A stretch of 30,411 bases of DNA. Source: a virus. The notes beneath the pieces were generated by a model. It was not told where the DNA came from. It saw only the letters and a list, made by a program, of their open reading frames with translations, and searched no databases. Both the position numbers and the translations under genes were made by a program. Each line of letters starts with the position of its first letter. Position 1 is the stretch's first letter. The DNA lies in the IMG/VR virus record IMGVR_UViG_3300017758_002219, positions 1-30,411 of that record. One strand, written 5' to 3'. This document shows positions 1 to 30,096 of the stretch, in pieces.

Positions 1-190
1 AGCACATTTTGCTAACAAAGCTGATTTAATTGTAAATATAAACAGAATATTTAATCCTGAAAAAACATTATTTCAAATAAAAAAAGTGCGAGAGGCTGAT
101 TTATATGGAGCTATTGGTGAGGCTGAATTTAAGTGGAACAGTAGTACAAGATGTTTTCACCCGTTAAATATTACTAAATGGGATAAATAA
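1..190 (+). CDS. Replicative DNA helicase (DnaB/T7 gp4-like), C-terminal fragment
   Basis: An open frame runs in from the left edge (first full codon at 2) and stops at TAA 188-190, giving about 62 residues. It begins AHFANKADLIVNINR and continues with IKKVREADLYGAIGEAEFKW and a final TRCFHPLN. This pattern of a 'NKAD' loop, a basic VRE/VRF segment, then a 'G..G.A...W....RF' ending is typical of the last strand region of phage primase-helicases and DnaB-like ATPases. The Walker motifs lie outside the window, so the call rests on the tail alone. It sits 10 nt upstream of queE, with an AAGGAG site between them, so replication and DNA modification genes are probably co-transcribed. Confidence 0.6.
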   Translation, partial: AHFANKADLIVNINRIFNPEKTLFQIKKVREADLYGAIGEAEFKWNSSTRCFHPLNITKWDK

Positions 191-200
191 AAGGAGAGCT

Positions 201-812
201 ATGGATTTTAAAATACATGAGTCATTTCAAAACGTTGTACAAGGCGAGGGCTATCATGCTGGACGCCCTTGTGATTTTATAAGGTTATACGGTTGTCCTG
301 TTGGCTGTTATTTTTGTGATACAGGATACGCAAAAGATAATACAACTAAAATTATGAAATATAAAATACCACAAGAAAAATTACTTGATGATTTAAAGTC
401 AAATTTTGTTGTTATTAGTGGTGGAGAGCCATTTATACATAAAAACATTAATGTATTATGTGAAAATTTAATACAAATAAATAAAGACGTTGCTATTGAG
501 ACGTCAGGTGCATTTTATCAAAACGTAAATGATAAAGTATGGATTACACTATCACCAAAACATCACATATCACCAAAATACCCTGTTAAACAAGAGGTTT
601 GGCAAAGAGCAAACGAACTGAAAATTGTTGTTGACACTGGTTATGAGCTTGATTTTTATAAAGATTTTATAATAAATTTTAATGGATATAAATATTTACA
701 ACCTGAGTTTGACGACATGGAAAAGACATTGCCGTTAGTTTTAAAGTTGTTACAAACTCATCAAGATTTTAAATTGTCGTTACAAACCCACAAAATTATA
801 GGAGTACGTTAA
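201..812 (+). CDS. queE: 7-carboxy-7-deazaguanine synthase (radical SAM)
   Basis: QueE converts 6-carboxytetrahydropterin (CPH4) to 7-carboxy-7-deazaguanine using SAM and a [4Fe-4S] cluster. The 203-residue protein shows QGEG (14-17), GRPCDFIRLYGC, and the CX3CX2C cluster motif at Cys32, Cys36 and Cys39 (GCPVGCYFCDT). It also has the GGEP SAM-binding motif at 74-77. The length is normal for compact QueE. The start follows an AAAGGAG Shine-Dalgarno site. The stop overlaps the queD start by one base (TAATG), so translation is coupled. With queD, queC, folE and dpdA next to it, the likely role is 7-deazaguanine synthesis for phage DNA rather than tRNA queuosine. Confidence 0.93.
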   Translation: MDFKIHESFQNVVQGEGYHAGRPCDFIRLYGCPVGCYFCDTGYAKDNTTKIMKYKIPQEKLLDDLKSNFVVISGGEPFIHKNINVLCENLIQINKDVAIETSGAFYQNVNDKVWITLSPKHHISPKYPVKQEVWQRANELKIVVDTGYELDFYKDFIINFNGYKYLQPEFDDMEKTLPLVLKLLQTHQDFKLSLQTHKIIGVR

Positions 813-1261
813 TGTATAGAGTAACAAAAAATTATGGACACGTTGAGGGATTAAGTTGTTGTTTTAGGCAGTGGAGAGCTGACAGTCATTGTAATATGTT
901 ACATGGCTATAGTTTATCCGTACAAATAAATATTGATACATCAAATTTAGATGATAAGAATTGGGTTTTTGACTTTGGCTCTTTTAAATATATTAAAGAT
1001 GTATTACACCAAACATTTGACCATACTACTTTAATATCAGAAGATGACCCTGAGTTAGCAACGTTTAAAAGTTTAAATAAAAAAAAGTTAATTGATTTGC
1101 GTATCATTAATGCTGTTGGTTGTGAAAAGTTTGCTGAACATATATTTAACGAATTTAATTTATATATTATTAAAAACAGTAACAACAGAGCTTGTATCAG
1201 TAGCGTAAAGGTATCAGAGCATGAGGGAAACTCTGCAACATACATAAATAACAAGGAATAA
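812..1261 (+). CDS. queD: 6-carboxy-5,6,7,8-tetrahydropterin synthase, divergent phage type
   Basis: QueD turns dihydroneopterin triphosphate (the FolE product) into CPH4, the substrate of QueE. In 149 residues the protein keeps the catalytic cysteine block C27-N-M-L-H31-G-Y33, the D70-H71 pair in FDHTTL, and a late Glu in SSVKVSEHEG (E136). It departs from the textbook family. The zinc triad is usually one His in an 'AAHRL' segment plus both His of HGH. Here the first falls in CFRQWRADSHC and the third is Tyr33. The FRQWRA variant looks like a phage-specific branch of the family. The gene sits in a coupled operon, so function is likely kept, but zinc binding must be rearranged or the real ligands lie elsewhere. 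Confidence 0.85.
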   Translation: MYRVTKNYGHVEGLSCCFRQWRADSHCNMLHGYSLSVQINIDTSNLDDKNWVFDFGSFKYIKDVLHQTFDHTTLISEDDPELATFKSLNKKKLIDLRIINAVGCEKFAEHIFNEFNLYIIKNSNNRACISSVKVSEHEGNSATYINNKE

Positions 1262-1262
1262 T

Positions 1263-1973
1263 ATGAATATGAAAATTATACAAGTTATATCTGGAGGTAT
1301 GGACAGTGTTGCTATGTTGTATTACTTACATAACAAACATAAAAATATTAAATGTTTATCAATTAATTATAATCAAAAACATAAAAAAGAAATTGCGTTT
1401 GCTAGTTACCATTGTAAAAAATTAGGTATTGAGCATAAGGTTGTTGATATAACAAGTGTAGCAAGTTTATTTAATAAAGAATCGGTGTTAATAAATGAAA
1501 ATAATGATGTGCCAAATGGTCATTATGAAAATATTGAAATGAAAAAAACTATAGTACCAAATAGAAATATGTTAATTCTAGCTATAGCAACAGCATGGGC
1601 TATTGAAGAAAAATATAATGCTATATGTTATGGAGCACACTCAGGTGATAGTGTTATTTATCCTGATTGCAGACTGGAATTTGTTAACGCTATGCAAAAA
1701 GCTATTAGCTTATGTGATGACCATAAAATAAATATTATTACTCCATTTATAAATAAAACCAAGGCTGACATTGTTGAGGTTGGAAACAAATTAAAAGTTA
1801 ATTGGCAAAAGACGTGGACATGCTATAAGGGTAGAGAACTGCATTGTGGAATGTGTGCTACGTGTATTGAAAGGCGAGAGGCATTTTATTTAGCTGGAAT
1901 TAAAGACCCAACTATATACGACGCTTGTTTAAGTGTTGAGGAATTAATTAAAACAAATTGGAGTAAGAAATGA
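1263..1973 (+). CDS. queC: 7-cyano-7-deazaguanine (preQ0) synthase
   Basis: QueC uses ATP and ammonia to convert 7-carboxy-7-deazaguanine to the nitrile preQ0. The 236-residue protein has the N-type ATP pyrophosphatase P-loop SGGMDS (10-15), the conserved VPNRNMLIL (98-106) and YGAHSGD. A zinc-binding cysteine cluster, Cys187, 195, 198 and 201 (CYKGRELHCGMCATC), completes the family pattern. No glutamine amidotransferase (Gat) domain is fused, unlike the Gat-QueC of phages that make archaeosine-type dG+. An in-frame ATG at 1269 is an alternative start. The 3' end overlaps folE by 4 nt (ATGA). Confidence 0.94.
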   Translation: MNMKIIQVISGGMDSVAMLYYLHNKHKNIKCLSINYNQKHKKEIAFASYHCKKLGIEHKVVDITSVASLFNKESVLINENNDVPNGHYENIEMKKTIVPNRNMLILAIATAWAIEEKYNAICYGAHSGDSVIYPDCRLEFVNAMQKAISLCDDHKINIITPFINKTKADIVEVGNKLKVNWQKTWTCYKGRELHCGMCATCIERREAFYLAGIKDPTIYDACLSVEELIKTNWSKK

Positions 1974-2818
1974 TTAAATATAATTATACATGGACAGAAT
2001 TTTTTAAAGACTTAGACATTTTAAAAGAAAAATTAAAACCAAATGACATCTTGTATGCTGTACCACGTGGTGGATTTTTTGTAACAAATTTTTTAACACA
2101 AAGAAAAACAATAGATATTGATAAAGCTACTGTAATTATTGATGACATATTAGATAGTGGTGCTACACGTAAAAAGTATGAAACTATGACACATGCTGAT
2201 TTTTTAGTGTTAGTGGATAAACAAAAAGACGAGCATAAAAATAAAGGTTATATAATATTTCCATGGGAAAATAATACACTTGATGACCACGACATAGTAA
2301 CAAGAATGATTGAGGCTATTGGTGAAAGCCCTAATAGAGAGGGTTTAATTGACACACCAAAAAGAGTTGTAAAAAGTTGGAAAAAAATATTTGGTGGTTA
2401 CAGTCAAACAGCAGAGGAAGTTTTGCAAACAGCTTTTACTGAAGAATATGACCAAATGATAGTGTGTAAGGATATTGAGTTTTACAGTACATGCGAACAC
2501 CATATGCTACCGTTTTATGGTAAAGCACATATTGGTTATATACCAAATGAAAAAGTTGTTGGGTTAAGCAAAATGCCACGCTTGTTAGAAGTTTTCGCAC
2601 GTCGTATGCAAATACAAGAGAGACTGACAAACCAAGTAGCTGACTCAATGCAAAGAATAATACAACCAAAAGGAGCTGGAGTTATTATTGAGGCTAAACA
2701 TCATTGTATGGTATGTCGTGGTGTTGAAAAACAAAACTCAAGTATGATTACAACAGCATTAACTGGAGTATTCAAAGAGCAATTAGTTAAAGATGAATTT
2801 CAAGGACATTGTAAATGA
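1970..2818 (+). CDS. folE: Phosphoribosyltransferase-like domain fused to GTP cyclohydrolase I
   Basis: FolE converts GTP to dihydroneopterin triphosphate, the first step toward 7-deazaguanines. Residues about 106-275 are a full FolE domain: NREGLIDTPKRV, the zinc ligands C175 and H178 in CEHH, GLSKMPRLLEVFARRMQIQE, and the third zinc Cys246 in HHCMVCRGV. The first ~102 residues are a separate domain with a type I phosphoribosyltransferase look. It has an 'AVPRGG' loop (30-35), the PRPP-binding signature VIIDDILDSGATR (55-67), and a closing FPWE (97-100) as in purine/xanthine PRTases. The total of 282 aa is well above a plain phage FolE. The PRTase part is short, so it may be minimal or non-catalytic. 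It overlaps queC and dpdA by 4 nt on each side. Confidence 0.9.
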   Translation: MIKYNYTWTEFFKDLDILKEKLKPNDILYAVPRGGFFVTNFLTQRKTIDIDKATVIIDDILDSGATRKKYETMTHADFLVLVDKQKDEHKNKGYIIFPWENNTLDDHDIVTRMIEAIGESPNREGLIDTPKRVVKSWKKIFGGYSQTAEEVLQTAFTEEYDQMIVCKDIEFYSTCEHHMLPFYGKAHIGYIPNEKVVGLSKMPRLLEVFARRMQIQERLTNQVADSMQRIIQPKGAGVIIEAKHHCMVCRGVEKQNSSMITTALTGVFKEQLVKDEFQGHCK

Positions 2819-3570
2819 TACATTATTTTGCTGGGTCAAGGTCTAGTGCTTTAATAAAAAATCACCTTATTGTGTGGACAGACAAAGGTGCTGTAGCAAA
2901 ACGTGAGGAAGTTTACACAAAGGATAGCAATATTTTAGTTGATAGTGGTGCGTTCTCAGCGTACACACAAGGGAAAACAGTTGACATTGACGAGTACATT
3001 GAATGGATTAAAAACTATAAACTTAAATGGGAAAAAAAAGTAAACCAATTAAACTTTATAAATTTAGATGTAATTGGTAGTCCACAAGACAGTCAAAAAA
3101 ATTTAAACTATTTAATTAAAAATAATGTAAACGTTTTACCCGTATTACATCAAGCTGGGTTTAATGTTGATACTTTAAAATCATACTTAGCCAAACATGA
3201 TTATATTGCTTTTGGTGGAATGGTTGGACGTAAACGCAAACAAGATACTATTCCTTGGTTAAATAAATGTTTTCATCAAATTGGTAAGCACTATAAAAAA
3301 ACAAAAAAATTACCACGTATACACTTATTAGGTGTAGGTAGTGAGGATATGATGTATAGATATCCAGCATGTAGCGTTGACAATACTAATTGGCTAGCTG
3401 TATATAGATTTGGTCGTAGTAATTTTATACATGAATTAAAAGCACCACGAGAATCACAAGATAGAGATTTAGTTGAAAAAATTGTAGAGTATGATATTAA
3501 AAGATTTCAAGAGATTGAATTAAACGTAACTAATTATTGGACAAAAAAAGGAGTTAGCTTTAATGAATAA
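2815..3570 (+). CDS. dpdA: DpdA-like DNA 7-deazaguanine transglycosylase (TGT family)
   Basis: Phage DpdA proteins are relatives of tRNA-guanine transglycosylase that exchange guanine in DNA for a 7-deazaguanine base. The 251-residue protein has the TGT-like VDSGAFSA (Asp43, matching the DSGGFQ acid/base), INLDVIGSP (Asp85), FGGMVGR (133-139), LLGVGSEDMMYRYP (171-184), and Asp189 in SVDNTNWL, placed where the TGT nucleophile lies. It lacks the C-terminal CxCxxC zinc site of tRNA-acting TGTs. It starts inside the folE stop (ATGA) and ends 8 nt inside the ParB-like gene. Its position as the last step of a preQ0 operon supports DNA, not tRNA, as substrate; the identity of the inserted base is inferred. 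Confidence 0.87.
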   Translation: MIHYFAGSRSSALIKNHLIVWTDKGAVAKREEVYTKDSNILVDSGAFSAYTQGKTVDIDEYIEWIKNYKLKWEKKVNQLNFINLDVIGSPQDSQKNLNYLIKNNVNVLPVLHQAGFNVDTLKSYLAKHDYIAFGGMVGRKRKQDTIPWLNKCFHQIGKHYKKTKKLPRIHLLGVGSEDMMYRYPACSVDNTNWLAVYRFGRSNFIHELKAPRESQDRDLVEKIVEYDIKRFQEIELNVTNYWTKKGVSFNE

Positions 3571-4153
3571 ATATGACGTTGATAGTGTTGTAATTAATAT
3601 GGACGATATACGCCCAAATACATGGAATCCAAACAAAATGAATAAAGCAACATACGAGGCTGAAAAAGAGTCATTAATAACTTATGGTCTAGTTGCACCA
3701 ATAGTTGTACGCAAATGTGCTGATGAAGAGGGCTACGAGATAGTTGATGGAGAACACCGATTTACCATATGGTACGAGCTAGGGCATAAAGAAATATCCT
3801 GTATGTTAATACACAATTTAAGTGATAAGGACGCAAAAAAATTAACTATTATATTAAATGAGACTAAAGGTAACAATGACAAGATTGAGTTAGGGAAGTT
3901 ATTGGCTAATTTACAACTAGAGTTTGGTAAGGACTTAAACATAGGATTACCATTTACAACAGACGTTATAAACGATTTAATTGATTTTGGTAATGTTGAT
4001 TGGGATAGTTACAACCAAGACAATAGTGAATCAGTTAACGAGAGTGAAGTTTATAGACTACATTTAACATTTAAGGGCAGTGATATTGATTTAATAAAAA
4101 ATAAACTTGGCGATAGCCCTGAAACTGCTATTATTAATTTACTTACAAATTAA
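3563..4153 (+). CDS. ParB/Srx-like nuclease-domain protein
   Basis: The N-terminal half shows a ParB/sulfiredoxin-fold domain: a 'DDIRPNTWNPNKM' entry (14-26), a GLVAPIVVRK strand (42-51), and the core VDGEHRF (61-67) followed by ELGHKEISC. This corresponds to the IxPNPxNP...DGxHRxxA pattern of phage ParB-like proteins. The C-terminal half (about 85-196) is helical, acidic and unrecognised. Such genes often lie next to terminase genes in phages; roles proposed for the family range from nuclease to NTP-dependent DNA clamp. It overlaps dpdA by 8 nt and precedes terS by 26 nt, so it bridges the modification and packaging modules. Its exact job is not known from sequence. Confidence 0.75.
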   Translation: MNKYDVDSVVINMDDIRPNTWNPNKMNKATYEAEKESLITYGLVAPIVVRKCADEEGYEIVDGEHRFTIWYELGHKEISCMLIHNLSDKDAKKLTIILNETKGNNDKIELGKLLANLQLEFGKDLNIGLPFTTDVINDLIDFGNVDWDSYNQDNSESVNESEVYRLHLTFKGSDIDLIKNKLGDSPETAIINLLTN

Positions 4154-4179
4154 TTTATTTTTACACTATAAAAGTATAT

Positions 4180-4563
4180 ATGCCTAAATTAGTAAACAAA
4201 ACAGATGAAAATGCACGTATGGTAACTCAATTAGCTGGGTTAGGATTACCACATGAACAAATTTGTTCAATATTAGATATATCCAAACCAACGTTATACA
4301 AGTACTATAATAATGACCTTGTTAAAGGCAAAGCAACTGCTAATGCTAAAATATCAGAAAATCTTTTTAAGATAGCAACAGGTACAGGGCGTGAGGCAGT
4401 TACAGCATGTATATTCTGGCTTAAGACTCAAGCACGTTGGACTGAGAAACAAGTATTGGAGATTCAAGATGGTACAGAGCAAGATGATAAATTTAAACAA
4501 CTCATCACAGACATTCAAAGAGCTAAACTCGCAGAAGAAGATAGCGACAATACTATTAACTGA
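4180..4563 (+). CDS. Terminase small subunit (putative)
   Basis: The 127-residue protein has an N-terminal helix-turn-helix (about 16-45: QLAGLGLPHEQICSILDI, then SKPTLYKYY) followed by helices ending in GTGREAVTACIFWLKTQARW. That tail is typical of a class of phage small terminase subunits, which bind the packaging site and regulate the large subunit. The next gene is a clear TerL, overlapping by 80 nt in another frame. No Shine-Dalgarno site is evident before the ATG: the upstream bases are AT-rich with TATAAAAGTATATATG. That could hide a promoter element or mark weak initiation. Confidence 0.72.
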   Translation: MPKLVNKTDENARMVTQLAGLGLPHEQICSILDISKPTLYKYYNNDLVKGKATANAKISENLFKIATGTGREAVTACIFWLKTQARWTEKQVLEIQDGTEQDDKFKQLITDIQRAKLAEEDSDNTIN

Positions 4564-5752
4564 TTGGATAAAAAAAGCTCGTAAGAATCAAATAGTTGTA
4601 GATGATGATGATTATAATATCCAATTATTCTTAGCTGGTAGAGGGTGGGGAAAAACTTTAACTGGTGCTTATGACATGGTGCAATATTGCTTAATTAATC
4701 CAAACAGTATTTGTGGTGTTATAGCACCCACTTACGGTGACTTAAAACGTGTATGCTTTGCTGGTGAGTCAGGTTTACTTGGTATACTTGATAAAGGTTT
4801 ATTAAACGAGGCTGGTTATAACAAGTCAGCAAACGAGATTGAGTTTTACAACGGGTCAAAAATAGTAGGATTCCCAGCTATAGAGCCAGACAGGTTACGT
4901 GGTGTACAATTTCATAGAGTTTGGTGTGATGAACTTGCGTCATGGAGATACAGAGAAACGTTTGACAACTTAATGATGGCGTTACGATTAGGGCAATCGC
5001 CAAAATGTATAATAACAACAACTCCACGTCCAACTGAATTAATAAAAGAGTTAGCAGTACGGGCAGACACTAAAATCATTAAAGGTAGCACGTTTGATAA
5101 CATTGATAACCTTGCTCCATCAGCAATAAAAATGCTAAAAGAAAGGTACGAGGGAACTAGACTAGGGCGTCAAGAATTGTACGCAGAAATATTAGAGGAC
5201 ATTGAGGGTGCGTTATTTAATAGTGCTAACATTGAGCAAAATAGAATTGAAGTTACGCCTGACATGCAAAGAATAGTTATAGCAGTAGACCCAGCAGTTA
5301 CTGCTAATGCTAATTCAGACGAGACAGGTATTGTTGTGGTTGGTAGAGGAATCGATAATCATTATTATGTACTTGATGACAAATCAGGTGTATTTAGCCC
5401 AGATGTTTGGATTAAGAGGGCTATAGACTTGTATTATAAATTTGACGCTGATAGGATTGTATGCGAGGTTAACAATGGTGGAGACTTGATAGAAAAATTA
5501 TTAAGAGTACAAGATGTTAACGTTCCATATACATCAGTACGAGCAACAAGGGGAAAAATGTTACGAGCAGAGCCTATATCAGCATTATATGAACAATCAA
5601 AAGTCAAGCACGTTGGATATTTTAAAGAGCTTGAGGACCAGATGTGTTCGTACACACCAAACACAATAAAATCACCGGACAGGCTAGACGCTTTGGTATG
5701 GGGTTTAACAAGTTTACAATCATCAGGAAACGCAATTTATAGAATTAGTTGA
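4484..5752 (+). CDS. Terminase large subunit (packaging ATPase/nuclease)
   Basis: TerL drives DNA into the prohead and cuts concatemers. Counting from the ATG at 4484 (422 aa), the ATPase has Walker A in LAGRGWGKT (50-58), Walker B in VWCDELASW (D149-E150) and the coupling motif TTTPRP (about 179-183). The RNase H-like nuclease shows AVDPAV (D269), VCEVNNGG (E328) and SPDRLDALVWGL (D402). The frame is open from 4391, but its first part reads as an unlike sequence over terS. ATG 4484 is the last ATG before the conserved region and has only a weak upstream site, so the start is uncertain and translation is probably coupled to terS. Confidence 0.93.
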   Translation: MINLNNSSQTFKELNSQKKIATILLTDWIKKARKNQIVVDDDDYNIQLFLAGRGWGKTLTGAYDMVQYCLINPNSICGVIAPTYGDLKRVCFAGESGLLGILDKGLLNEAGYNKSANEIEFYNGSKIVGFPAIEPDRLRGVQFHRVWCDELASWRYRETFDNLMMALRLGQSPKCIITTTPRPTELIKELAVRADTKIIKGSTFDNIDNLAPSAIKMLKERYEGTRLGRQELYAEILEDIEGALFNSANIEQNRIEVTPDMQRIVIAVDPAVTANANSDETGIVVVGRGIDNHYYVLDDKSGVFSPDVWIKRAIDLYYKFDADRIVCEVNNGGDLIEKLLRVQDVNVPYTSVRATRGKMLRAEPISALYEQSKVKHVGYFKELEDQMCSYTPNTIKSPDRLDALVWGLTSLQSSGNAIYRIS

Positions 5753-5759
5753 GGACACT

Positions 5760-7874
5760 ATGGGATTATTTGATAGATTTAAAAAAGAACAGCCAAAGTT
5801 ACAAAGAAAAGAAGCTCCACAAGTAATTATAAATAAAATAAATGCGTATGAGGGTAAGACAAACAAAAAGTATAAAGAGTTTGCTAAAGAGGGTTATCAA
5901 GAAAATTCCATAACATACCGTTGCATTAACTTAATTGCTGTTAATGTTAGTGCCACTAAAATAAAAGTATTTAGCGGTGATAAAGAGTTAGACAACCATG
6001 AGCTCATATCATTATTAAATAGACCTAACCCTTTACAATCAGGCGTTGAGTATTTTCATTCGTTAGTTAGTTACCTTTTAATATCAGGAAATACTTATAT
6101 GTTAAAAGATAAAGAATTTGGTATACCAAAGGAATTATATTTATTACGACCAGACAGAATGGTTATTGAGTCAACCTCGTCAATGATACCAACGTCTTAT
6201 AGATATAAAGTTGATGGCAAGACCATTAGTGAATATCCTGTTGATAAGTTAAATGGTATGTCGCAAATAAAGCATGTAAAACTCTGGAATCCGTTAGATG
6301 ATTTTTATGGTTTTTCACCAATAGTAGCTGGTGCTTATAACATTGACCAACATAATTTAGCTGGCTTGCATAACGTTGGGTTACTAAAAAACGGCTGTAC
6401 ACCGTCAGCAATGCTAAAATTTCAACCGAAAGACGAAACAGGTATGACTGCTACACTTACTGACGACCAACGTGCAAGTATACTAAATGACTTGGAGCAA
6501 CGCTTTAAAGGTGCAAATAATTCTGGACGTCCTATGTTACTAGAGGGCGACTTTGACTATGTTCAAATGGGCATATCGCCTAAGGATATGGATTTTTTGG
6601 AATTAATGAATATGAGTGCTAGAGAGATCGCATTGTGTTTTGGTGTACCAGCTCAATTAGTTGGTATTGCTGACCAAACGTATGCCAATGTCGCAGAGGC
6701 ACGTTTATCATTGTATGAGGAAACTATTATTCCATTATTGGACAGACTGCAATCTGATTTAAATGAATGGCTATCACCTTTATATAGTGGTGATATAAAA
6801 ATTGCATTTGATATTGATTCAATACCAGCTATGGCAGAAAAGAGAAAACAAATATTTGCTAACGTTACGCAAGGAGTTCAACAAGGTATATTGACAAGAA
6901 ATGAGGCAAGAGAAAGACTTGGTTTAGAGCCAATACAAGGTGCTGACGCTTTATTAGTACCATCAAATTTATTTCCACTTGGTGAAATTGATACTGCTCC
7001 AATGGACGAAGAAGATAATGACAAGCCAGTAGACTCACAAGGTAACGAAAAATATAATGATACTTATGGATTAGCGTATGGTGCGAAAGCTATGCTAGAG
7101 GAAGATGTATTTGATAATCCAGGTGAGGCAGTTGAACGAGCAAAGGTTATTGGTTGTACTGGTGTTCACACAATGGAAAAAGATGGTCAAACAGTTTTTA
7201 TGCCTTGTGATACACATGCTGAATATGACGAGGCTATTTTATCTAGTAAAGCAGTAAGTGATATGAAGTTTGTTGCGACTGCTGGTATGAAAGCAGAGGC
7301 AAGAAAAGGATTAAACTGGAGAAAAGAATATAATCGTGGTGGTACTAACATAGGTGCAACAAGAGCAACGCAAATTGTAAACGGTGATAATATGTCAGCA
7401 AGTACTGTACTTCGCATGTACTCTTTTTTTGCAAGACACGAGTCAGACAAAACAGGACAAGGTTTTAAACCAAGTGAAAAAGGATATCCAAGTGCTGGAC
7501 GTATAGCATGGGCGTTATGGGGTGGAGACGCTGGATTCAGTTGGAGTAAAACACAACGAAATAAAATAATGACAGCTAGAGGTGAGAAAGCAGAGGCTAG
7601 TGATTTAAAAGTAGGAGACATGGTGTCTTGGGATAATTCAGGTGGACGTGCTAGTGGAAAAATTACAAGGATTGTTAGGTCGGGTAAATTAGCTGTACCT
7701 AAAACAGAATTCACGTTAAATGCTACTGAAGATAACCCAGCTAGTTTGATTCGCTTATATAGAAACAACGAGCCAACGGATACTATAGTAGGGCATAGAT
7801 TCGCAAGTTTACGCAAAATAGGTGCAAAACAAGCCCCTAGTCTCGCAAATAAGGCGGTTAATAATAACGTGTAA
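5760..7874 (+). CDS. HK97-type portal protein with long C-terminal fusion
   Basis: The portal forms the dodecameric ring for DNA entry and tail joining. Residues 1-410 are a standard HK97-type portal: ITYRCINLIAVNV, LLNRPNPLQSG, SGNTYML, LWNPLDDFYGFSPI, MSAREIALCFGVPAQLVG and YEETIIPLLDRL. After an acidic linker (410-430) come about 270 extra residues in three blocks. The first is a Cys/His block (459-489: RAKVIGCTGVH, FMPCDTHAEYDEA). The second is an NWRKEYNRGG...FFARHE...GYPSAGRIAWALWGGDAG domain (519-592). The third is a VGDMVSWDNSGG segment (618-629) like the HVA1/Tudor-type (DUF2945) fold. The latter two are seen in phage head proteins in other contexts. The start follows a GAGGACACT spacer 7 nt after terL. 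Confidence 0.92.
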   Translation: MGLFDRFKKEQPKLQRKEAPQVIINKINAYEGKTNKKYKEFAKEGYQENSITYRCINLIAVNVSATKIKVFSGDKELDNHELISLLNRPNPLQSGVEYFHSLVSYLLISGNTYMLKDKEFGIPKELYLLRPDRMVIESTSSMIPTSYRYKVDGKTISEYPVDKLNGMSQIKHVKLWNPLDDFYGFSPIVAGAYNIDQHNLAGLHNVGLLKNGCTPSAMLKFQPKDETGMTATLTDDQRASILNDLEQRFKGANNSGRPMLLEGDFDYVQMGISPKDMDFLELMNMSAREIALCFGVPAQLVGIADQTYANVAEARLSLYEETIIPLLDRLQSDLNEWLSPLYSGDIKIAFDIDSIPAMAEKRKQIFANVTQGVQQGILTRNEARERLGLEPIQGADALLVPSNLFPLGEIDTAPMDEEDNDKPVDSQGNEKYNDTYGLAYGAKAMLEEDVFDNPGEAVERAKVIGCTGVHTMEKDGQTVFMPCDTHAEYDEAILSSKAVSDMKFVATAGMKAEARKGLNWRKEYNRGGTNIGATRATQIVNGDNMSASTVLRMYSFFARHESDKTGQGFKPSEKGYPSAGRIAWALWGGDAGFSWSKTQRNKIMTARGEKAEASDLKVGDMVSWDNSGGRASGKITRIVRSGKLAVPKTEFTLNATEDNPASLIRLYRNNEPTDTIVGHRFASLRKIGAKQAPSLANKAVNNNV

Positions 7875-7903
7875 TGGTAATGTAACTCGGAATATAGCAA
7901 ATT

Positions 7904-8305
7904 ATGTTTAAATTAGGTAAAGGGTCAAAAGAAAAATTAAGTACAGTCCACCCTGATTTGCAACTAATATTTAACGAGGCAATAAAAATAACTCATATTG
8001 ACTTTGGTGTAACTGAGGGCATTAGAAGTAAAGAGCGTGGCAGACAATTACAAGCTGAGGGAAAAAGTAAAGTTGGCGACAAGTCAAAACATTGTAAAGG
8101 ACTTGCTGTTGATATTGCTTGTTATGATATGGGTAAAATAACTTGGGAATTAGAATATTACGAGGCTGTAGCACAAGTGGTTGGAGAGGTTGCAGATATG
8201 TTGGATATAAAAATAAGATGGGGCGGTAGTTGGGAGACTGGAAATTTTACGTTAAATCGTGATATGAGTTTTATTGACGCTGTACACTTTGAAATAATTG
8301 TTTAA
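7904..8305 (+). CDS. M15 family peptidase, probable endolysin
   Basis: This 133-residue protein carries the zinc peptidase signature of the M15 family (VanY/DD-carboxypeptidase and L-Ala-D-Glu endopeptidases such as T5 endolysin). It has GIRSKERGRQLQAEGKSK (39-56), the HxxGxAxD block H63-C-K-G-L-A-V-D70, WGGSW (106-110), and the final D125-A-V-H128-F-E. Zinc ligands are H63, D70 and H128. No signal peptide is visible, so export would need the holins encoded near 29 kb. The gene sits between portal and minor head genes, about 21 kb from the holin-like genes. It may therefore be a lysis enzyme, a virion-associated peptidoglycan hydrolase, or both. Confidence 0.88.
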   Translation: MFKLGKGSKEKLSTVHPDLQLIFNEAIKITHIDFGVTEGIRSKERGRQLQAEGKSKVGDKSKHCKGLAVDIACYDMGKITWELEYYEAVAQVVGEVADMLDIKIRWGGSWETGNFTLNRDMSFIDAVHFEIIV

Positions 8306-8329
8306 ATTAATTATCTTGGATATGTTTAT

Positions 8330-9133
8330 ATGGCTGACAAGATTCGAATAAGCAAAAGAAAAGATTATAATGAGCAGTTACGTTTATACAATAGTCTATC
8401 AAAAAACCTTAATGCAAAATTAAAAAGACTGTTTGCTAAAACAGCACGACAAGCAGAGCAAGAATATATTGCTAACCAAGACATGTATTATTTTTTTACA
8501 GAGCCATTTACTGATGGGCTGTATAAAATATTGGAAAGTCATTATCGGTTAGTTATAAACACAATGGCAACTCGCATGGTTAAAATGAGGCGTAAACAAG
8601 ATGAAGAATATGACGCACTTGTTAAAACTTATGTTGCTGATGTGTTAGCTGGTCAAGTTACAAATATATCTGTTACCACAGAGGCACAAATTAAAACAAT
8701 CATAACTCAAGCCATTGCTGGAAAAATTATTATTGACAAAATACCACAAACATCAATTTTTCAAATAGGTCGGTTGATACGTAAAAACAAATCGTTCGCA
8801 CCATACAGAGCAAGAATGATTGCTCGTACCGAAACGCACTCAACAATGAATTTTACTAACTTTGCAATATCAGGACAGCTAGGTTTAAACAATCCTGTTA
8901 AACAATGGAACACAGCAAGTGATGAACGTGTACGTGATTGGCATAAGGTTATGGATAATAAAAAGGTTGGGCGTGATGAATATTTTAAAGTTCTAACACC
9001 TGTTGCTGGTGGTACGTTTACAGAAAAACGCATGTTGTATACTGGTGATATGCTTAATGGTGGACCGTTAAATGTCATAAATTGTCGGTGTTTTACACTA
9101 TATTACGATTCAGAAGACGAAATTATCCTATAA
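8330..9133 (+). CDS. Minor head / head morphogenesis protein (SPP1 gp7 / Mu F-like)
   Basis: The 267-residue protein has a basic helical N-terminus (about 1-130). Its C-terminal domain follows the Mu gpF/SPP1 gp7 pattern: RARMIARTETHS, VKQWNTASDERVRDWHKVMD, EYFKV, and the closing NCRCFTLYY with a Cys pair. These proteins bind the portal and help start head assembly. Its place just after the portal (with one gene between) is usual. The ATG lies 25 nt after the endolysin stop with a poor Shine-Dalgarno site. Confidence 0.83.
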   Translation: MADKIRISKRKDYNEQLRLYNSLSKNLNAKLKRLFAKTARQAEQEYIANQDMYYFFTEPFTDGLYKILESHYRLVINTMATRMVKMRRKQDEEYDALVKTYVADVLAGQVTNISVTTEAQIKTIITQAIAGKIIIDKIPQTSIFQIGRLIRKNKSFAPYRARMIARTETHSTMNFTNFAISGQLGLNNPVKQWNTASDERVRDWHKVMDNKKVGRDEYFKVLTPVAGGTFTEKRMLYTGDMLNGGPLNVINCRCFTLYYDSEDEIIL

Positions 9134-9187
9134 CTCTATACAACTCAATAACTTATACCGTAAAAAAAACTGTACTTATATTACTTA

Positions 9188-9204
9188 TATGTAATAATTA
9201 CATA
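9188..9204. promoter_or_regulatory. Perfect 17-bp palindrome in intergenic gap, possible operator
   Basis: TATGTAATAATTACATA is an exact inverted repeat (8-bp arms around one base) in the 103-bp gap between the minor head gene and the small-gene island. It is 33 nt upstream of the ATG at 9237. The gap also holds TATATT at 9177-9182 as a weak -10 candidate, without a convincing -35. Being short and A+T-only in the middle, it could arise by chance in this AT-rich genome. Its location at the island's 5' border makes an operator plausible. Confidence 0.35.
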
Positions 9205-9236
9205 GTTACATTCGATTAATAACTAGGAGTTTGAAA

Positions 9237-9650
9237 ATGAGTAAAACACAAATGACACAACAGCACGTTCGAGTAATAGCTTTAGAATCTTTTTTTAAAG
9301 TAAAGAAATTAAAAAATAAGATGTCTAAATTAGAGATGGATTTTTTGTATTCGTCTATAACATTAATGAACATGGAAGTAGCTTTGCGTACTGATACATA
9401 TGCTAATGGTACTGAATACAATATTCGCAAAAGTGAGGTTGAGGAATTAAGGTTAGACAACAAAAGACTGAGAGTAAAAATTCATCATGTACAACAAGAT
9501 ATGGCAAATGAAAATGATTTATTAATGAGAGCGTGTATTGAGAACGAAGATTTTGTTAAAACGTTTCTTGATGAAGATGAGGACGCTGTAAATAAATATC
9601 CAGAGTTTAAATTATTACATGACGCTGTAACTTTGGTTGAGGCTTGCTAA
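9237..9650 (+). CDS. Hypothetical helical protein, first gene of small-gene island
   Basis: The 137-residue protein matches no family I recognise. It is mostly helical and charged, with a coiled-coil-like stretch (about 20-45: KVKKLKNKMSKLEMDFLYSS) and a second one (about 60-90: EVEELRLDNKRLRVKIHHVQ), then an acidic tail. The ATG at 9237 is preferred to the TTG at 9231 because AGGAG (9225-9229) lies 7 nt before it. No signal peptide or membrane segment is present. It is followed by a small GC-rich hairpin. Confidence 0.7.
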   Translation: MSKTQMTQQHVRVIALESFFKVKKLKNKMSKLEMDFLYSSITLMNMEVALRTDTYANGTEYNIRKSEVEELRLDNKRLRVKIHHVQQDMANENDLLMRACIENEDFVKTFLDEDEDAVNKYPEFKLLHDAVTLVEAC

Positions 9651-9657
9651 ATTAACA

Positions 9658-9675
9658 GGGAGCAGAAATGCTCCC
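9658..9675 (+). terminator. Short GGGAGC hairpin between island genes
   Basis: GGGAGC (9658-9663) pairs with GCTCCC (9670-9675) across a 6-base loop. It follows the 9237-9650 stop codon directly. No T-run follows, so it is more likely a weak terminator, RNA-stabilising or processing hairpin than a strong stop. A near twin occurs at 10386-10403. Confidence 0.4.
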
Positions 9676-9694
9676 ACTTACTAGGAGATATATT

Positions 9695-10078
9695 ATGTAC
9701 GAGATTTATAAATATCATATACGTAGCGACAAAACTTTTAAATTCGAATGCGAGTATGACGATTACATTATAAACACTATTAACGAGAATAAACTGAAGT
9801 ACGCAAATGAGCTTAGTGATGTTTTAAGTAGTGGTGGCAGTGAAGATGATGTTTGGTGTCCACCAAATGATTGGTATCCGATAAACGGCTTGTTTGTTTA
9901 TAAAGTAGATACGTATTTAAAAGATGGTGCTAATGAAACACATTGCGGACATGAGTTTGTTGTTGTTGAGGGTTGTGACTTACCAAATGACGCATTAACT
10001 TGGATTGACGATAAGCCAGTAGGACGCAAAATGTTTACGTTAGAGCATTTAATTGGTTGTACTGCAAATTATTATTAA
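9695..10078 (+). CDS. Hypothetical acidic protein
   Basis: This is a 127-residue soluble protein with no family I can name. The start at 9695 is chosen because AGGAG (9683-9687) sits 7 nt upstream; the earlier in-frame ATG at 9668 lies in the loop of the preceding hairpin. The protein is acidic, rich in aromatic residues, and has scattered cysteines (CEYDDY, VWCPPNDWYP, HCGHEF, EGCDLP, IGCTANYY). Its N-terminal half is helical and its C-terminal half looks like beta structure around HEFVVVEGC. It lies in a run of small genes that resembles phage early or host-takeover cargo. Confidence 0.68.
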   Translation: MYEIYKYHIRSDKTFKFECEYDDYIINTINENKLKYANELSDVLSSGGSEDDVWCPPNDWYPINGLFVYKVDTYLKDGANETHCGHEFVVVEGCDLPNDALTWIDDKPVGRKMFTLEHLIGCTANYY

Positions 10079-10103
10079 TAAAAACTTAAACAGGAGAAAT
10101 AAA

Positions 10104-10379
10104 ATGAGAGCATATACAAAAAAATTTATAGAATCACAAACTGACGAATGGTTACGAGACTTTTCCGATAAATACGAGGACGCAAGTGCGACAAAAAGAT
10201 TAGCACTCTATGACCATTATAAGTTAGTAGAAAAAGAGCTAACTGACCGTTATGAGCAGGAGTGTAAGGAGTTGTATGAGGCTGAAACACGTATGGAGTT
10301 AGGCTCTACTGCATGTAATTATTTAGATGGTGTTTATGATTATGATGACGTTGGAGACCCTAGCGATAATTGGGAGTAG
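10104..10379 (+). CDS. Hypothetical small helical protein
   Basis: The 91-residue protein is unrecognised. The start at 10104 follows AGGAG (10092-10096); an upstream in-frame ATG at 10053 would overlap the previous gene and lacks a ribosome site. The sequence is helical and highly charged (KLVEKELTDRYEQECKELYE), with an acidic aromatic C-terminus (YDYDDVGDPSDNWE). There is no signal peptide or membrane segment. Two small hairpins follow its stop codon. Confidence 0.66.
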   Translation: MRAYTKKFIESQTDEWLRDFSDKYEDASATKRLALYDHYKLVEKELTDRYEQECKELYEAETRMELGSTACNYLDGVYDYDDVGDPSDNWE

Positions 10380-10385
10380 CAGTAC

Positions 10386-10403
10386 AGGAGCAAGGACGCT
10401 CCT
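10386..10403 (+). terminator. AGGAGC hairpin followed by TTTT
   Basis: AGGAGC (10386-10391) pairs with GCTCCT (10398-10403) over a 6-base loop, followed by CTGTTTT. The stem is short, so termination would be partial at best. Its stem sequence is almost the same as the hairpin at 9658-9675, and each lies just after a small gene. Confidence 0.4.
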
Positions 10404-10409
10404 CTGTTT

Positions 10410-10425
10410 TAGAGTGTGTACTCTA
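10410..10425 (+). terminator. TAGAGT hairpin downstream of the AGGAGC hairpin
   Basis: TAGAGT (10410-10415) and ACTCTA (10420-10425) form a 6-bp stem with a GTGT tetraloop. It lies 7 nt after the previous hairpin and 46 nt before the next start codon. No T-run follows. It may be a transcript-stabilising element rather than a terminator. Confidence 0.3.
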
Positions 10426-10471
10426 ACTGATGATTTCAAAAGAATGAAACAGAATTAACTAGGAAAATATT

Positions 10472-10636
10472 ATGAAAAAACAATATAACAAGAGTGGTCA
10501 AGAAATAAGGGTTGGGCGTGAGAATCCTGATGAATATATGTCTTTATTGGAGATATTAGGTGGTTTTATAGTACTTGGGCTTGGTTTGGTGTGTACATAC
10601 CTAATTCTACTTTTAGGCAGTATATACAGCGTTTAA
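10472..10636 (+). CDS. Small single-pass membrane protein
   Basis: This is a 54-residue protein in an open frame that starts with MKKQYNKSGQEIRVGREN and ends in one hydrophobic helix, about residues 28-51 (ILGGFIVLGLGLVCTYLILL). AGGAAA lies 6 nt before the ATG. The polar N-terminus of 27 residues and short tail suggest a membrane anchor. No family is recognised. It shares the island layout of one small gene per Shine-Dalgarno site, which supports it being real despite its size. Confidence 0.6.
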   Translation: MKKQYNKSGQEIRVGRENPDEYMSLLEILGGFIVLGLGLVCTYLILLLGSIYSV

Positions 10637-10687
10637 GGCGTACTATTAACTCGTAATATCAATATTTATTAAACAATGGAGCAAATT

Positions 10688-10924
10688 ATGACAAATCTAG
10701 TAAGAAACCCAATAATAAACAAGTACGGTTGTACTAATACAGTTGGTCAATATATTCATGGTACATATGATACCAAAGTTATTGACGTGAAATGTGGCAC
10801 AACTGATTTAGACGGAAGTACTTTAACATGTGATTCGTGTTGGAAAGAGTGGCACGATAAACACCCAAACGGTCTTACATCATTTTATGGTGGAGATGAT
10901 GATTATGATGACGGCATACTATAG
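10688..10924 (+). CDS. Hypothetical small Cys-containing protein
   Basis: The 78-residue protein has four cysteines in KYGC, VKCGTTD and LTCDSCWKEWH, plus nearby histidines (HGTYD, EWHDKHP). It could be a small zinc-binding fold, although the spacing fits no motif I can name. The C-terminus is acidic (GGDDDYDDG). The start at 10688 is preferred over the ATG at 10676 because the latter forms part of a TGGAGC ribosome site spaced correctly for 10688. It is followed after 9 nt by the DUF2958 gene. Confidence 0.66.
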   Translation: MTNLVRNPIINKYGCTNTVGQYIHGTYDTKVIDVKCGTTDLDGSTLTCDSCWKEWHDKHPNGLTSFYGGDDDYDDGIL

Positions 10925-10933
10925 GAGCTAAAT

Positions 10934-11251
10934 ATGAAACTACTAACAAAAGAAATAGAAAAAAAACTATTAGCAAACAACGGTAAAAGCTGTGCAGGCT
11001 CAGGACGCAGTATGGAGAACAATAAGGTAGTTGTTAAATTCTTTAACCCATCAGGACAGGCAACTTGGTGGCTTTACTCTATGGACGATAATGGTATTTG
11101 TTTTGGTCTCGCCCAGATGTTTGGTAGAGATACTAGAGAATACGGATATTTTGATATTAATGAAATTAAATCTATTAAATGTCCACCGTTTGGATTACCG
11201 ATAGAAAGAGATATGTATTACACACCTGAAACCTTTGGAGAACTATTATGA
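10934..11251 (+). CDS. DUF2958 domain protein
   Basis: At 105 residues this is a near full-length DUF2958 protein. It has the family N-terminus MKLLTKEIEKKLLANN, the central VVKFFNPSGQATWWLYSMD, the FGLAQMFG segment, the 'E.GY.(D/S)..E..S(I/L)' strand, and the closing GLPIERDMYYTP. The family occurs on plasmids, in antirestriction islands and in phages, and its biochemical role is not established. AGGAGC precedes the ATG by 4-5 nt. The stop overlaps the next start (ATGA), so the two are translationally coupled. Confidence 0.85.
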   Translation: MKLLTKEIEKKLLANNGKSCAGSGRSMENNKVVVKFFNPSGQATWWLYSMDDNGICFGLAQMFGRDTREYGYFDINEIKSIKCPPFGLPIERDMYYTPETFGELL

Positions 11252-11409
11252 CATTCGATATTAAAAAGTTTGCTAGTCAAATGGCACAATTAAATGGCGT
11301 TGAAGTATATACGTATAATGACGATAATGATTTTGTAAAAGTTGAAGTCGTTAATGAAGATGATAAAAAAGAGGAGGCTGAAAATGAAGAAAAAAATAAA
11401 CAAGAGTGA
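11248..11409 (+). CDS. Small acidic protein coupled to DUF2958
   Basis: The 53-residue protein starts inside the DUF2958 stop (ATGA), with GGAG 7 nt upstream. It reads MTFDIKKFASQMAQLNGVEV and then becomes strongly acidic (NEDDKKEEAENEEKN). Its last 26 nt overlap the next gene in another frame; the AAGAGGAGG ribosome site of that gene lies within it. No family is recognised. The acidic tail is partly forced by encoding the next ribosome site, but the 4-nt coupling supports translation. Confidence 0.55.
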   Translation: MTFDIKKFASQMAQLNGVEVYTYNDDNDFVKVEVVNEDDKKEEAENEEKNKQE

Positions 11410-11590
11410 GGCTGTCTTTAAACACTTGGTATCACATGGCTTTATAACTACATGGGACGCTATTACTAAATACAAAGCTACAAGGCTTAGTAGCATTATC
11501 TATAACTTGCGTAACAAAGGTTATGATATTGAAAGTGTTTGGGTAGAGGATAAGCCTAGCAGATTTGTTATGTACACGTTAAAAGAATAA
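11384..11590 (+). CDS. HTH_39-like helix-turn-helix protein
   Basis: This 68-residue protein resembles the small winged-helix/HTH family found in phages (HTH_39-like): AVFKHLVSHGFITTWDAITKY, ATRLSSIIYNLRNKGYDIES, then VEDKPSRFVMYTL. The layout is first helix, 'ITT..A', recognition segment 'TRLSS.I.NLR', then a beta wing. A strong GAGGAGG site sits about 6 nt before ATG 11384, so this start is chosen over the earlier ATGs from 11342. It is the last island gene, just before the terminator, and is the best candidate for a local regulator. Confidence 0.78.
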   Translation: MKKKINKSEAVFKHLVSHGFITTWDAITKYKATRLSSIIYNLRNKGYDIESVWVEDKPSRFVMYTLKE

Positions 11591-11621
11591 GATATAATAA
11601 AATTTACTTGCTTGATTTTTT

Positions 11622-11647
11622 AGAGGGTTAACAGCCCTCTTTTTTTT
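11622..11647 (+). terminator. Rho-independent terminator
   Basis: AGAGGG (11622-11627) pairs with CCCTCT (11635-11640) over a 7-base loop, directly followed by seven Ts (11641-11647). It lies 31 nt after the last island gene and separates the island from the prohead protease gene. It is the clearest terminator in the window. Confidence 0.88.
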
Positions 11648-11649
11648 GC

Positions 11650-11679
11650 TTGTAATAAAGCCTATTCTATTGCTAGAAT
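11650..11679 (+). promoter_or_regulatory. Possible sigma70-type promoter for capsid genes
   Basis: TTGTAA (11650-11655) and TAGAAT (11674-11679, one mismatch to TATAAT) are 18 bp apart, just after the terminator and 33 nt before the protease ATG. A perfect TTGACA at 11693-11698 also occurs but lacks a matching -10 upstream of the gene. A terminator followed by structural genes implies that some promoter lies here, yet phage-specific promoters may not look like sigma70 sites. Confidence 0.4.
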
Positions 11680-11711
11680 GATATAACTTTACTTGACAGG
11701 GAAATCATAAT

Positions 11712-12383
11712 ATGTCTCAAGAAATTTTAGAAGTTGTAAATGATGTTTTTGATATTGAATGTGAATATAAAGATTTAGACGCAGATGATGATGGTAGCTT
11801 TGAGGGTTATGGGTCTGTATTCAATAACAAAGATTTAGGCAATGACGTTATCAAGTCAGGAGCATTCGCTGATTCAATAAAATACAAAAAGCCACGACAA
11901 ATTAAATTACTTTACCAGCATAAGACGGACGAGCCTATTGGAGTTATTGATAGCCTAGTTGAAGATAGCAAAGGGTTAAAAATTAAAGGTCGGTTGGCTA
12001 TGGGTACGCAGAAAGGTAAAGAGGTGTATGAGTTAATGAAAATGGGTGCGTTAGATTCTATGTCAATAGGCTATAGGCTTAGCCCAGATGATTACAAATA
12101 CAGCGACAAGCTGAAGAAACGAACAATTACGAATTTGGATTTGATGGAAATATCAATGGTGACGTTTCCTATGAATCCCAAGGCTAAAGTAACGAAAGTT
12201 AAATTAGCACATATGGACACAAGAGAGTTAGAGGAATACTTACGAGATGTTGGTGTTATGTCAAGCTCTGTTGCTAAGCAAACTGCAAATATACTATATA
12301 AATCTTACCAAGAACAAGATTTATTAGAACAGCGAGATGTTGTTGATAGTATTAGTGCATTAATTAATACGATTAAACATTAA
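11712..12383 (+). CDS. HK97-type prohead protease
   Basis: This serine protease removes the scaffold/delta part of capsid proteins during head maturation. The 223-residue protein shows FEGYGSVFNNKDLGNDVI (30-47), the catalytic-His region LLYQH70, and the catalytic-Ser region ALDSMSIGY (S116/S118; the conserved Ser of 'SxGY' is S118). It ends with the family motif LDLMEISMVTFPMNPKA. The length is usual. It is the first gene after the terminator and lies 11 nt before the capsid gene. Confidence 0.93.
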   Translation: MSQEILEVVNDVFDIECEYKDLDADDDGSFEGYGSVFNNKDLGNDVIKSGAFADSIKYKKPRQIKLLYQHKTDEPIGVIDSLVEDSKGLKIKGRLAMGTQKGKEVYELMKMGALDSMSIGYRLSPDDYKYSDKLKKRTITNLDLMEISMVTFPMNPKAKVTKVKLAHMDTRELEEYLRDVGVMSSSVAKQTANILYKSYQEQDLLEQRDVVDSISALINTIKH

Positions 12384-12394
12384 CGGAGATTATA

Positions 12395-13615
12395 ATGAGT
12401 GAAGAAATCAAATCTGTTATAGACAACTTGGGTAAATCTTTTGAAGATTTCAAAGGTGAAAACTCAAAACGTCTTGACGAAGTTGAAAAGAAAGGCTCTG
12501 CTAGTGCTGAACTTGAAAGCAAAATTGATGCTATGGCTGACGACATCACAAAGATGGCTGAGACAAAGCAAAAAATTGAGTTGCAAGCAAAGGCGTTAGA
12601 GGACGCAGAAGTTAAACTAGATAAAATAGAAACAATGTTAGCAAGACCTGAGACAGGGCTAGATTCAAAAGAAGTTGACACACAAATGAAAGCCTTTGGT
12701 CAAATGCTAAGAAAAGGTAAGGACAATATAGACCCAATGGAATTAAAAGCTCTTTACGAGTCTGATGATACATTAGGTGGATATTATGCTCCTGTTGAGT
12801 ATGTTGCTGACCTTATAAAATCAGTAACTGAAATATCGCCTTTACGTTCAGTAGCAAGAATCAGAACTACATCAAACCGAGCAATAGAACTTCCTAAAAG
12901 AACAGGACAATTCGCTGCCTCGTTTGTAAATGAAACTGCTACACGTACAGAGACAACAGGTTATCAAACAGGCTTAATGCAAATAGACGCACACGAGTTG
13001 TACGCTATGGTTGATATTAGTCAGGCGTTGTTAGAGGATTCAGCTTTTAATTTAGAGTCTGAAATGTCTACAGAGTTTGGTGAGCAGTTTGCAAAGGCTG
13101 AAGGTACTAAATTTATAAATGGTACAGGTGTTGGTACTCCACAAGGAATAACTGATACTGGTGCTGGTGTTGCTACTGTTAATTCAGGAAGTGGTACAGT
13201 ACTAACCACAAACGGACTTTTAGACTTAATGTACTCTATTAAATCTGACTATATGAACAACGCAAGATTTCTTATGAACAGAAGTACCTTTGCGTCAATC
13301 TTAAAGTTGGAGGATACAGAGGGGCAAAAAATATTTGTTCAAGGTATGTCTTATGTTGGTGGTGCTCCAAGTACAATTTTAGGTAAACCATATTTGTTAG
13401 CAGAGGATATGCCTAATGTTGGAAGTTCAGCAAAACCAATAGCATATGGTGATTTCTCAAGAGCTTATACTATTGTTGATAGAGTTGCTTTATCAATAAT
13501 GAGAGACCCATATACAGTTGCTACTGCTGGTAGCATACGTTATCACGCCAGACGTAGAGTTGGTGGAGCAGTTGTTCTTGCAGAGGCTATAGCACTGCAA
13601 AACATATCAGCATAA
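12395..13615 (+). CDS. Major capsid protein, HK97 fold
   Basis: The 406-residue protein has an N-terminal delta-like coiled coil (about 1-85; e.g. LDEVEKKGSASAELESKIDA), as expected for a self-scaffolding HK97-type capsid protein. The shell domain starts near 120-130 (YESDDTLGGYYAPVEYVADL) and continues with ISPLRSVARI, ELYAMVDISQALLEDS, a loop at FINGTGVGTPQGI, FLMNRSTFASI, and the C-terminal YGDFSRAYTIVDR...SIMRDPY. The adjacent protease probably cuts between about residues 90 and 125. GGAG precedes the ATG. Confidence 0.94.
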   Translation: MSEEIKSVIDNLGKSFEDFKGENSKRLDEVEKKGSASAELESKIDAMADDITKMAETKQKIELQAKALEDAEVKLDKIETMLARPETGLDSKEVDTQMKAFGQMLRKGKDNIDPMELKALYESDDTLGGYYAPVEYVADLIKSVTEISPLRSVARIRTTSNRAIELPKRTGQFAASFVNETATRTETTGYQTGLMQIDAHELYAMVDISQALLEDSAFNLESEMSTEFGEQFAKAEGTKFINGTGVGTPQGITDTGAGVATVNSGSGTVLTTNGLLDLMYSIKSDYMNNARFLMNRSTFASILKLEDTEGQKIFVQGMSYVGGAPSTILGKPYLLAEDMPNVGSSAKPIAYGDFSRAYTIVDRVALSIMRDPYTVATAGSIRYHARRRVGGAVVLAEAIALQNISA

Positions 13616-13630
13616 TATAGGAGATTAATT

Positions 13631-23141: not shown

Positions 23142-23154
23142 AAAGGAGTTAACT

Positions 23155-29091: not shown

Positions 29092-29092
29092 T

Positions 29093-29843: not shown

Positions 29844-29891
29844 CAGCAAAGCAAAATATAAATATCATTACACATAAAAGTAATAATTGAC

Positions 29892-30092: not shown

Positions 30093-30096
30093 ATTA

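Follow-up and report, generated by a model that had tools for sequence, protein, structure and literature searches.

The window analysed here is the complete IMG/VR virus record IMGVR_UViG_3300017758_002219 (30,411 bp), and the operon that begins at its position 201 is very likely the known phage dPreQ0 pathway, in which six genes would replace part of the DNA guanine with 7-cyano-7-deazaguanine (preQ0). FolE would convert GTP to dihydroneopterin triphosphate, QueD and QueE would carry this on to carboxy-deazaguanine, QueC would form preQ0, and DpdA would swap guanine bases in the DNA for it. dPreQ0 would then be the final base and would block restriction enzymes whose sites include the modified G, a protection that is expected by analogy. 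Chief among the variant features that lift the operon above the routine is the fusion of FolE to a phosphoribosyltransferase (PRT) domain that resembles xanthine-guanine phosphoribosyltransferase (XGPRT).

Five forward open reading frames (ORFs) in the order queE-queD-queC-folE-dpdA span positions 201-3570 and adjoin terminase and portal genes. Consecutive genes are joined by a 1-nt overlap (queE/queD), a 1-nt gap (queD/queC) and two 4-nt overlaps (queC/folE and folE/dpdA), and a Shine-Dalgarno-like sequence lies ahead of all five starts. The ORFs agree with the initial annotation, made from the DNA alone, in gene order, coordinates, the 1-4 nt overlaps with a single 1-nt gap, and the adjoining packaging genes. 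Its description of five genes is correct but incomplete, as the joining of a PRT domain to FolE, the sixth, ParB-like gene and the changed metal site of QueD escaped it. Family matches for QueE, QueD, QueC, FolE and DpdA have E-values of 4e-18 to 3e-71, far past chance.

The first gene, queE (201..812), encodes a radical-SAM 7-carboxy-7-deazaguanine synthase of 203 aa (phrog_2076, 3.5e-28; Radical_SAM, 2e-8), in which the cluster motif CxxxCxxC is present as GCPVGCYFCD. The product of queC (1263..1973; 236 aa) is a canonical 7-cyano-7-deazaguanine synthase (PF06508, 4e-63; TIGR00364 above cut-off) with no Gat domain, and the motifs SGGMDS, YNQKHKKE, VPNRN, YPDC and CYKG..CxxCxxC were all found in it. 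In E. coli QueC the essential or conserved elements are SGGxDS, YxQxHxxE, VPxRN, YPDC and the Tyr of the zinc loop (PMC13329287), and every residue reported as essential in that list is retained in the phage protein.

Between these two genes lies queD (812..1261), which encodes a 6-carboxytetrahydropterin synthase-like protein of 149 aa (phrog_2389, 7e-38; PF01242 (PTPS), 4e-18). In an alignment numbered on what we take to be the E. coli QueD sequence, the catalytic residues C27, D70 and H71 and the pterin-binding E136 are invariant, and the zinc site is incomplete, with H31 kept, H16 replaced by F and H33 replaced by Y. The earlier statement that the diagnostic motifs of all five enzymes are present thus holds for QueE, QueC, FolE and DpdA, whereas QueD keeps its Cys/Asp/His residues without two of the zinc ligands. 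The pattern S-x-C-F-R-Q..S-H-C..L-H-G-Y is common to phages Iggy and RHEph04 and occurs in variant form in phi38:2, and by its sequence the protein is best placed among the QueD-like proteins of a phage clade to which Iggy and RHEph04 also belong. Iggy is reported, according to a paper that cites the finding, to carry dPreQ0, and since its QueD is of the same type, this type probably functions with a remodelled metal site.

The last of the five, dpdA (2815..3570), encodes a short phage-type DNA-guanine transglycosylase of 251 aa (phrog_887, 6e-37). Its catalytic residues D43 (DSGAF), D85 (NLDV), H170 and D189 (SVD) are retained, and D43, G45, D85, H170 and D189 are invariant in an alignment of 20 DpdA relatives. 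A profile of these relatives aligns the DSGAF and SxDS segments with the solved DNA-guanine transglycosylase 7ui4, albeit weakly (E = 0.02), and the protein appears to belong with phage-type DpdA only. An identity as DpdA2, which is without one His of DpdA (PMC6884629), was considered and rejected, as the equivalent of that His is, by our own mapping, the invariant H170.

The remainder of the genome could also be recovered. Searching with DpdA brought up another IMG/VR record (G001, here also L009; 25,186 bp) that is a circular permutation of the window. Its first 7,416 bases correspond to window positions 22,995-30,410 and its last 13.7 kb to window positions 1-13,745, at 99.99-100% identity, while 4,025 bp of it (L009 7417-11441) are absent from the window; the circle closes at ~34.4 kb and a third contig backs 2.66 kb of the circle join at 99.98% identity. 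The window record (G000) is a near-whole genome and not a piece of a larger phage, and the two records, which together cover the circle, are referred to as the completed genome.

Homologues of FolE, QueD, QueE and QueC are present, together with a DpdA homologue that has its catalytic residues, and QueF, ArcS, Gat-QueC and DpdC were not found across the completed circle. Models for QueF, ArcS (DUF5591), GATase, YaaA/DpdC and the preQ0 transporter YhhQ were run on both records with positive controls and gave no genuine match. The Pfam QueF model does pass its cut-off at 2510-2683, and this candidate was rejected because the segment is the FolE domain (239 bits), which has the same fold. These searches bear out that QueC is without Gat and that the window holds no QueF or ArcS; the reservation that QueF, Gat or ArcS might lie outside the window has largely been removed, since the recovered rest of the genome was searched and none was found. 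As no later-step enzyme is encoded, dPreQ0 is predicted to be final. Rosebush and CAjan, which have DpdA and FolE/QueD/QueE/QueC without an amidotransferase, have 28% and 32% of their G, respectively, as dPreQ0 (PMC6884629). The present gene set matches that measured group, and the original prediction of dPreQ0 is supported, and strengthened by the completed genome, to the point that the presence of this base in the phage DNA is strongly expected from the gene content. Some points weigh against this reading: QueD is without two of the three canonical zinc ligands and scores below the NCBIfam QueD cut-off, and DpdA reaches 17.8 bits on the bacterial DpdA equivalog NF041059 where the cut-off is 200.

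It is improbable that the final base is a further product (dPreQ1, dADG or dG+) made by host enzymes such as QueF or by an unrecognised phage enzyme. Salmonella phage 7-11 had dADG in its DNA although no enzyme that would make it was recognised, the products of Dp-1 and HVTV-1 differed from first predictions (PMC6884629), and several ORFs of the present genome have no family match, but the models for later steps and transport were silent on the completed genome except for FolE itself, and the two phages of this minimal gene set that were measured both contain dPreQ0. That the genes mainly boost preQ0 for queuosine in host tRNA, or that FolE serves folate, with DNA not the target, is very improbable indeed. 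Some phages do have preQ0 genes without DpdA, and tRNA use has been proposed for them (PMC6884629); here, however, the preQ0 set ends in a translationally linked DpdA with intact catalytic residues, and the proteins scanned showed no sign of queA, queG, queH or a tgt-type enzyme acting on tRNA.

The fourth gene, folE, is a single ORF (1970-2818) that encodes two domains, with about 105 additional N-terminal residues: an XGPRT-like PRT domain (aa 1-102; 1970..2275), assigned by profile comparison, AlphaFold and Foldseek, and a GTP cyclohydrolase I domain (aa 109-282; 2294..2818; PF01227, 3e-71; Foldseek match to 1wm9, 7e-26). The FolE zinc ligands C175, H178 and C246 are invariant in 46 fusions. 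A frame error or other artefact as the source of the fusion was rejected, because it is one ORF, is identical in two other contigs and recurs in relatives.

The PRT domain has both the pyrophosphate (PPi) loop, PRGG, and the phosphoribosyl pyrophosphate (PRPP) motif, DDILDSGAT, of 6-oxopurine PRTases, together with the purine-side motif YIIFPWE. A profile of 46 PRT domains matches xanthine-guanine phosphoribosyltransferases along its full length (2e-9), the AlphaFold model has a pLDDT of 94.9, and its top 36 Foldseek matches in the PDB are all 6-oxopurine PRTases, the best being E. coli XGPRT with a guanine analogue (E 1e-5, TM-score 0.67). E. coli XGPRT (Gpt) and its relatives share with the phage domain the fold, the PRPP and PPi loops and the aromatic/PW purine-side motif. 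They differ in that the phage domain is fused to FolE and has a shortened flexible loop: the stretch from the PPi loop to the PRPP loop is 21 residues here and 21-42 residues across the fusions measured (80/80 shortened), compared with 48 in what is presumably the XGPRT sequence. In alignments to PDB chains, XGPRT shows a 22-residue insertion relative to the PRT domain.

A transglycosylase frees one guanine for each base that it inserts, and with a genome of ~34 kb, ~34% GC and ~30% of G exchanged, our arithmetic gives a few thousand guanines freed per genome copy. The XGPRT-like domain would bind guanine and PRPP and turn the guanine released by DpdA into GMP, feeding the GTP pool on which FolE draws. 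Recycling of this guanine by the fused PRT domain is proposed tentatively, and it is possible, though offered with caution, that many DpdA phages have a closed guanine loop in which the XGPRT-like domain on FolE returns the ejected guanine as GMP. The PRPP motif DDxxD[ST]GxT is kept in 80/81 fusions, including the third Asp, which is the general base in catalytic PRTases, and this retention argues for catalysis by the PRT domain, whereas the reduced loop points to weak catalysis or to sensing. As a sensor, the domain would bind a ligand (PRPP, GMP or preQ0) and tune GTP cyclohydrolase activity without being a catalyst itself. This alternative is only a little less probable than recycling: no fusion measured has the full loop, the domain is attached straight to the first enzyme of the pathway, control of FolE by a partner protein exists elsewhere (GCH-GFRP complexes; GFRP for animal GTP cyclohydrolase) and PRTase-fold regulators serve other pathways, but the conserved third Asp would be superfluous for a pure sensor. 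Guanine recycling in turn faces evidence to the contrary, in that little is left of the flexible loop that closes over PRPP, so that turnover may be low or absent, and that the purine-contacting Lys84 is found in just 32/46 PRT domains. Furthermore, the DpdA phages Iggy, CAjan and RHEph04 have FolE without a PRT domain, and the domain is therefore not required.

The fusion is not peculiar to this genome. It was found in 75/82 related environmental FolE loci from an IMG/VR profile scan and earlier searches, a similarity-ranked sample and hence not a frequency estimate, and 67 of these 75 fused loci have DpdA in the flank that was fetched, most of the other eight being close to a contig end. Named phages with the fusion include Nipunavirus, VpKK5 and MMDA13, among others, in which it is annotated simply as GTP cyclohydrolase. 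No description of a PRT-FolE fusion was found in the searchable literature, supplements being outside its scope, nor does the paper on MMDA13 refer to one. A scan of bacterial genomes gave at least six PRT matches, and among the matches listed none was confirmed as fused to FolE.

The closest relatives of the fusion (L025, L026 and L027; ~60% identity) have queE, queD, PRT-folE, dpdA and parB, and queC was undetected nearby in these three and missing in 35/75 fusion loci; some queC-less fusion loci may insert the carboxy base or use a divergent or distant QueC. In a 170-kb phage contig (L052) PRT and FolE are separate neighbouring ORFs (5803-6384 and 6397-6945) with no DpdA in the flank. Cellulophaga phage phiST has a stand-alone PRT relative (L022 4989-5417) near a ribonucleotide reductase gene, and FolE and DpdA were undetected in the stretch fetched. 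An uncultured Lewinella metagenome-assembled genome (L106 6001-6888), which could be a phage contig or a join made in assembly, carries a short-loop PRT directly after a QueE-like ORF, joined to unrelated sequence and not to FolE.

The parB-like gene (3563..4153; forward strand; 196 aa) overlaps dpdA by 8 nt and has its own ribosome-binding site, while the gene for the terminase small subunit, terS, begins 26 nt after it without an obvious ribosome-binding site. It is counted as the sixth gene of the operon because of this overlap and ribosome-binding site, its adjacency to dpdA in relatives and the precedents of DpdB and mycobacteriophage CRB2. Its product is a candidate DpdB-type partner with the ParB-superfamily domain expected of DpdB (PF02195, 1e-11); a PADLOC search at E 0.1 gave no DpdB match, the presence of a DpdB model in the PADLOC library not having been checked. 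ParB adjoins dpdA in 28/32 related loci that hold both, before it in 18 and after it in 10. After dereplication the two are adjacent in 25/29 loci, compared with 5 expected under random gene order, and 0/1,000,000 simulations reach 25, under a model that ignores shared ancestry and similarity-ranked sampling.

In bacterial Dpd systems the ParB-like DpdB aids the insertion of preQ0 by DpdA, although it is perhaps dispensable in some clusters, and in CRB2 a ParB-like ORF beside DpdA and near the terminase genes has been suggested as dpdB. The ParB-like protein of the present phage would help DpdA as DpdB assists bacterial DpdA, and by this analogy a role as partner of DpdA is rather likely, the lack of an annotated ParB-like gene beside dpdA in CAjan telling against it. 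ParB-like genes often precede terS, and the gene could instead be a member of the packaging module in accidental contact with dpdA. Such a role would fit its place between dpdA and terS, and the named phages closest to it are not those listed as bearing dpdA; it is nevertheless unlikely, given that ParB lies on the opposite side of dpdA in 18/28 adjacent cases, that the gene overlaps dpdA and has a ribosome-binding site whereas terS stands apart without an obvious one, and that ORF1 of CRB2, ParB-like and beside DpdA, was suggested to be a dpdB homologue.

Among known systems, Rosebush and CAjan (Hutinet et al. 2019, PMC6884629) share DpdA, FolE, QueD, QueE and QueC, with no amidotransferase or QueF; this phage differs from them in its XGPRT-fused FolE, its short dpdA overlapping a ParB-like gene and its ~34-kb genome. 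CAjan, for its part, encodes a preQ0 transporter and a FolE that is not fused, and no ParB is annotated next to its dpdA. Nipunavirus and related phages (PaMx25, NP1, JG054, Quinobequin-P09, VpKK5 and MMDA13) have, like this phage, PRT-FolE directly before dpdA, the two FolE proteins being ~40% identical, but their operon order is queE-queC-queD-folE-dpdA, QueD is of the canonical zinc type in those checked, and a clamp and DNA polymerase come next where this phage has ParB and terminase. A long QueC of Gat-QueC size in PaMx25 and JG054 and a QueF-like gene in MMDA13 imply other final bases in some of these phages. The Cellulophaga phi38:2 and phiSM group likewise has a short DpdA overlapping a ParB-like gene and a QueD of the SxCFRQ..SHC..LHGY type, with the differences that FolE is unfused and QueF is annotated. 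Mycobacteriophage cluster B (CRB2) resembles this phage in gene arrangement, with a ParB-like gene, dpdA and the que genes in the neighbourhood of the terminase genes, and in CRB2 the ParB-like gene (ORF1) comes before dpdA (ORF2). The bacterial DpdA/DpdB/DpdC system similarly pairs a TGT-like DpdA with a ParB-superfamily partner, but this phage has no DpdC match and its DpdA is far below the curated bacterial cut-off.

Beyond the operon lie genes for the small and large terminase subunits, the portal, head and tail, all read on the forward strand where given here. The terminase small subunit (4180..4563; phrog_309, 1e-17) is followed by the large subunit TerL (4391..5752; PF03237/PF17289; phrog_979, 2e-45), the true start of which probably lies downstream of the first GTG of the ORF. 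The portal protein (5760..7874; 704 aa; PF04860, 1.5e-75) bears DUF3721 and a 'hypervirulence-associated TUDOR' domain (Hva1_TUDOR) in a C-terminal extension, which is unusual for portals. With ParB-like, terminase, portal, head and tail genes downstream, the virus is a tailed phage. TerL matches roseophage CRP-6 and others at ~45%, and no tRNA, integrase or close named relative was seen for host assignment.

Directly upstream of queE, positions 2..190 (forward strand) encode the C-terminal end of a DnaB-like helicase/ATPase (phrog_239, 2e-32) that is identical in L009, where the gene is intact (L009:10768-11631). The 4,025-bp supplement codes for a 2-oxoglutarate-Fe(II) (2OG-Fe(II)) oxygenase, an Erf-like annealing protein, a Cro-like repressor, an O-like replication initiator and this DnaB-like helicase. 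The oxygenase gene runs on the minus strand (L009 7103-7696), and window positions 30097-30411 hold its C-terminal part; base or protein modification by such an enzyme is conceivable in principle, with no link to the operon. An independent contig (L011, the reverse complement of window 1-4764) is identical to window 1-4571, and this shared 4.57 kb carries zero polymorphism across contigs on which selection on operon variants could be tested. Beyond 4571, 32 mismatches fall within the final 193 bp in the terS/terL region, which may reflect a recombination point, a strain variant or an assembly join.

The core dPreQ0 system is already known, and one more dPreQ0 phage adds only modestly to it, although it is notable that a ~34-kb genome spends about a tenth of its length on the system. 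The variant features reach further. The altered QueD bears on how this enzyme works without two zinc ligands, and the parB-like gene on whether phage DpdA requires a ParB-type partner. PRT-FolE bears on the fate of the guanine that is freed as a phage exchanges one in three of its G residues and, if true, the guanine loop would make a PRTase whose flexible loop is unusually short a component of 7-deazaguanine DNA modification that is undescribed in the searchable literature.

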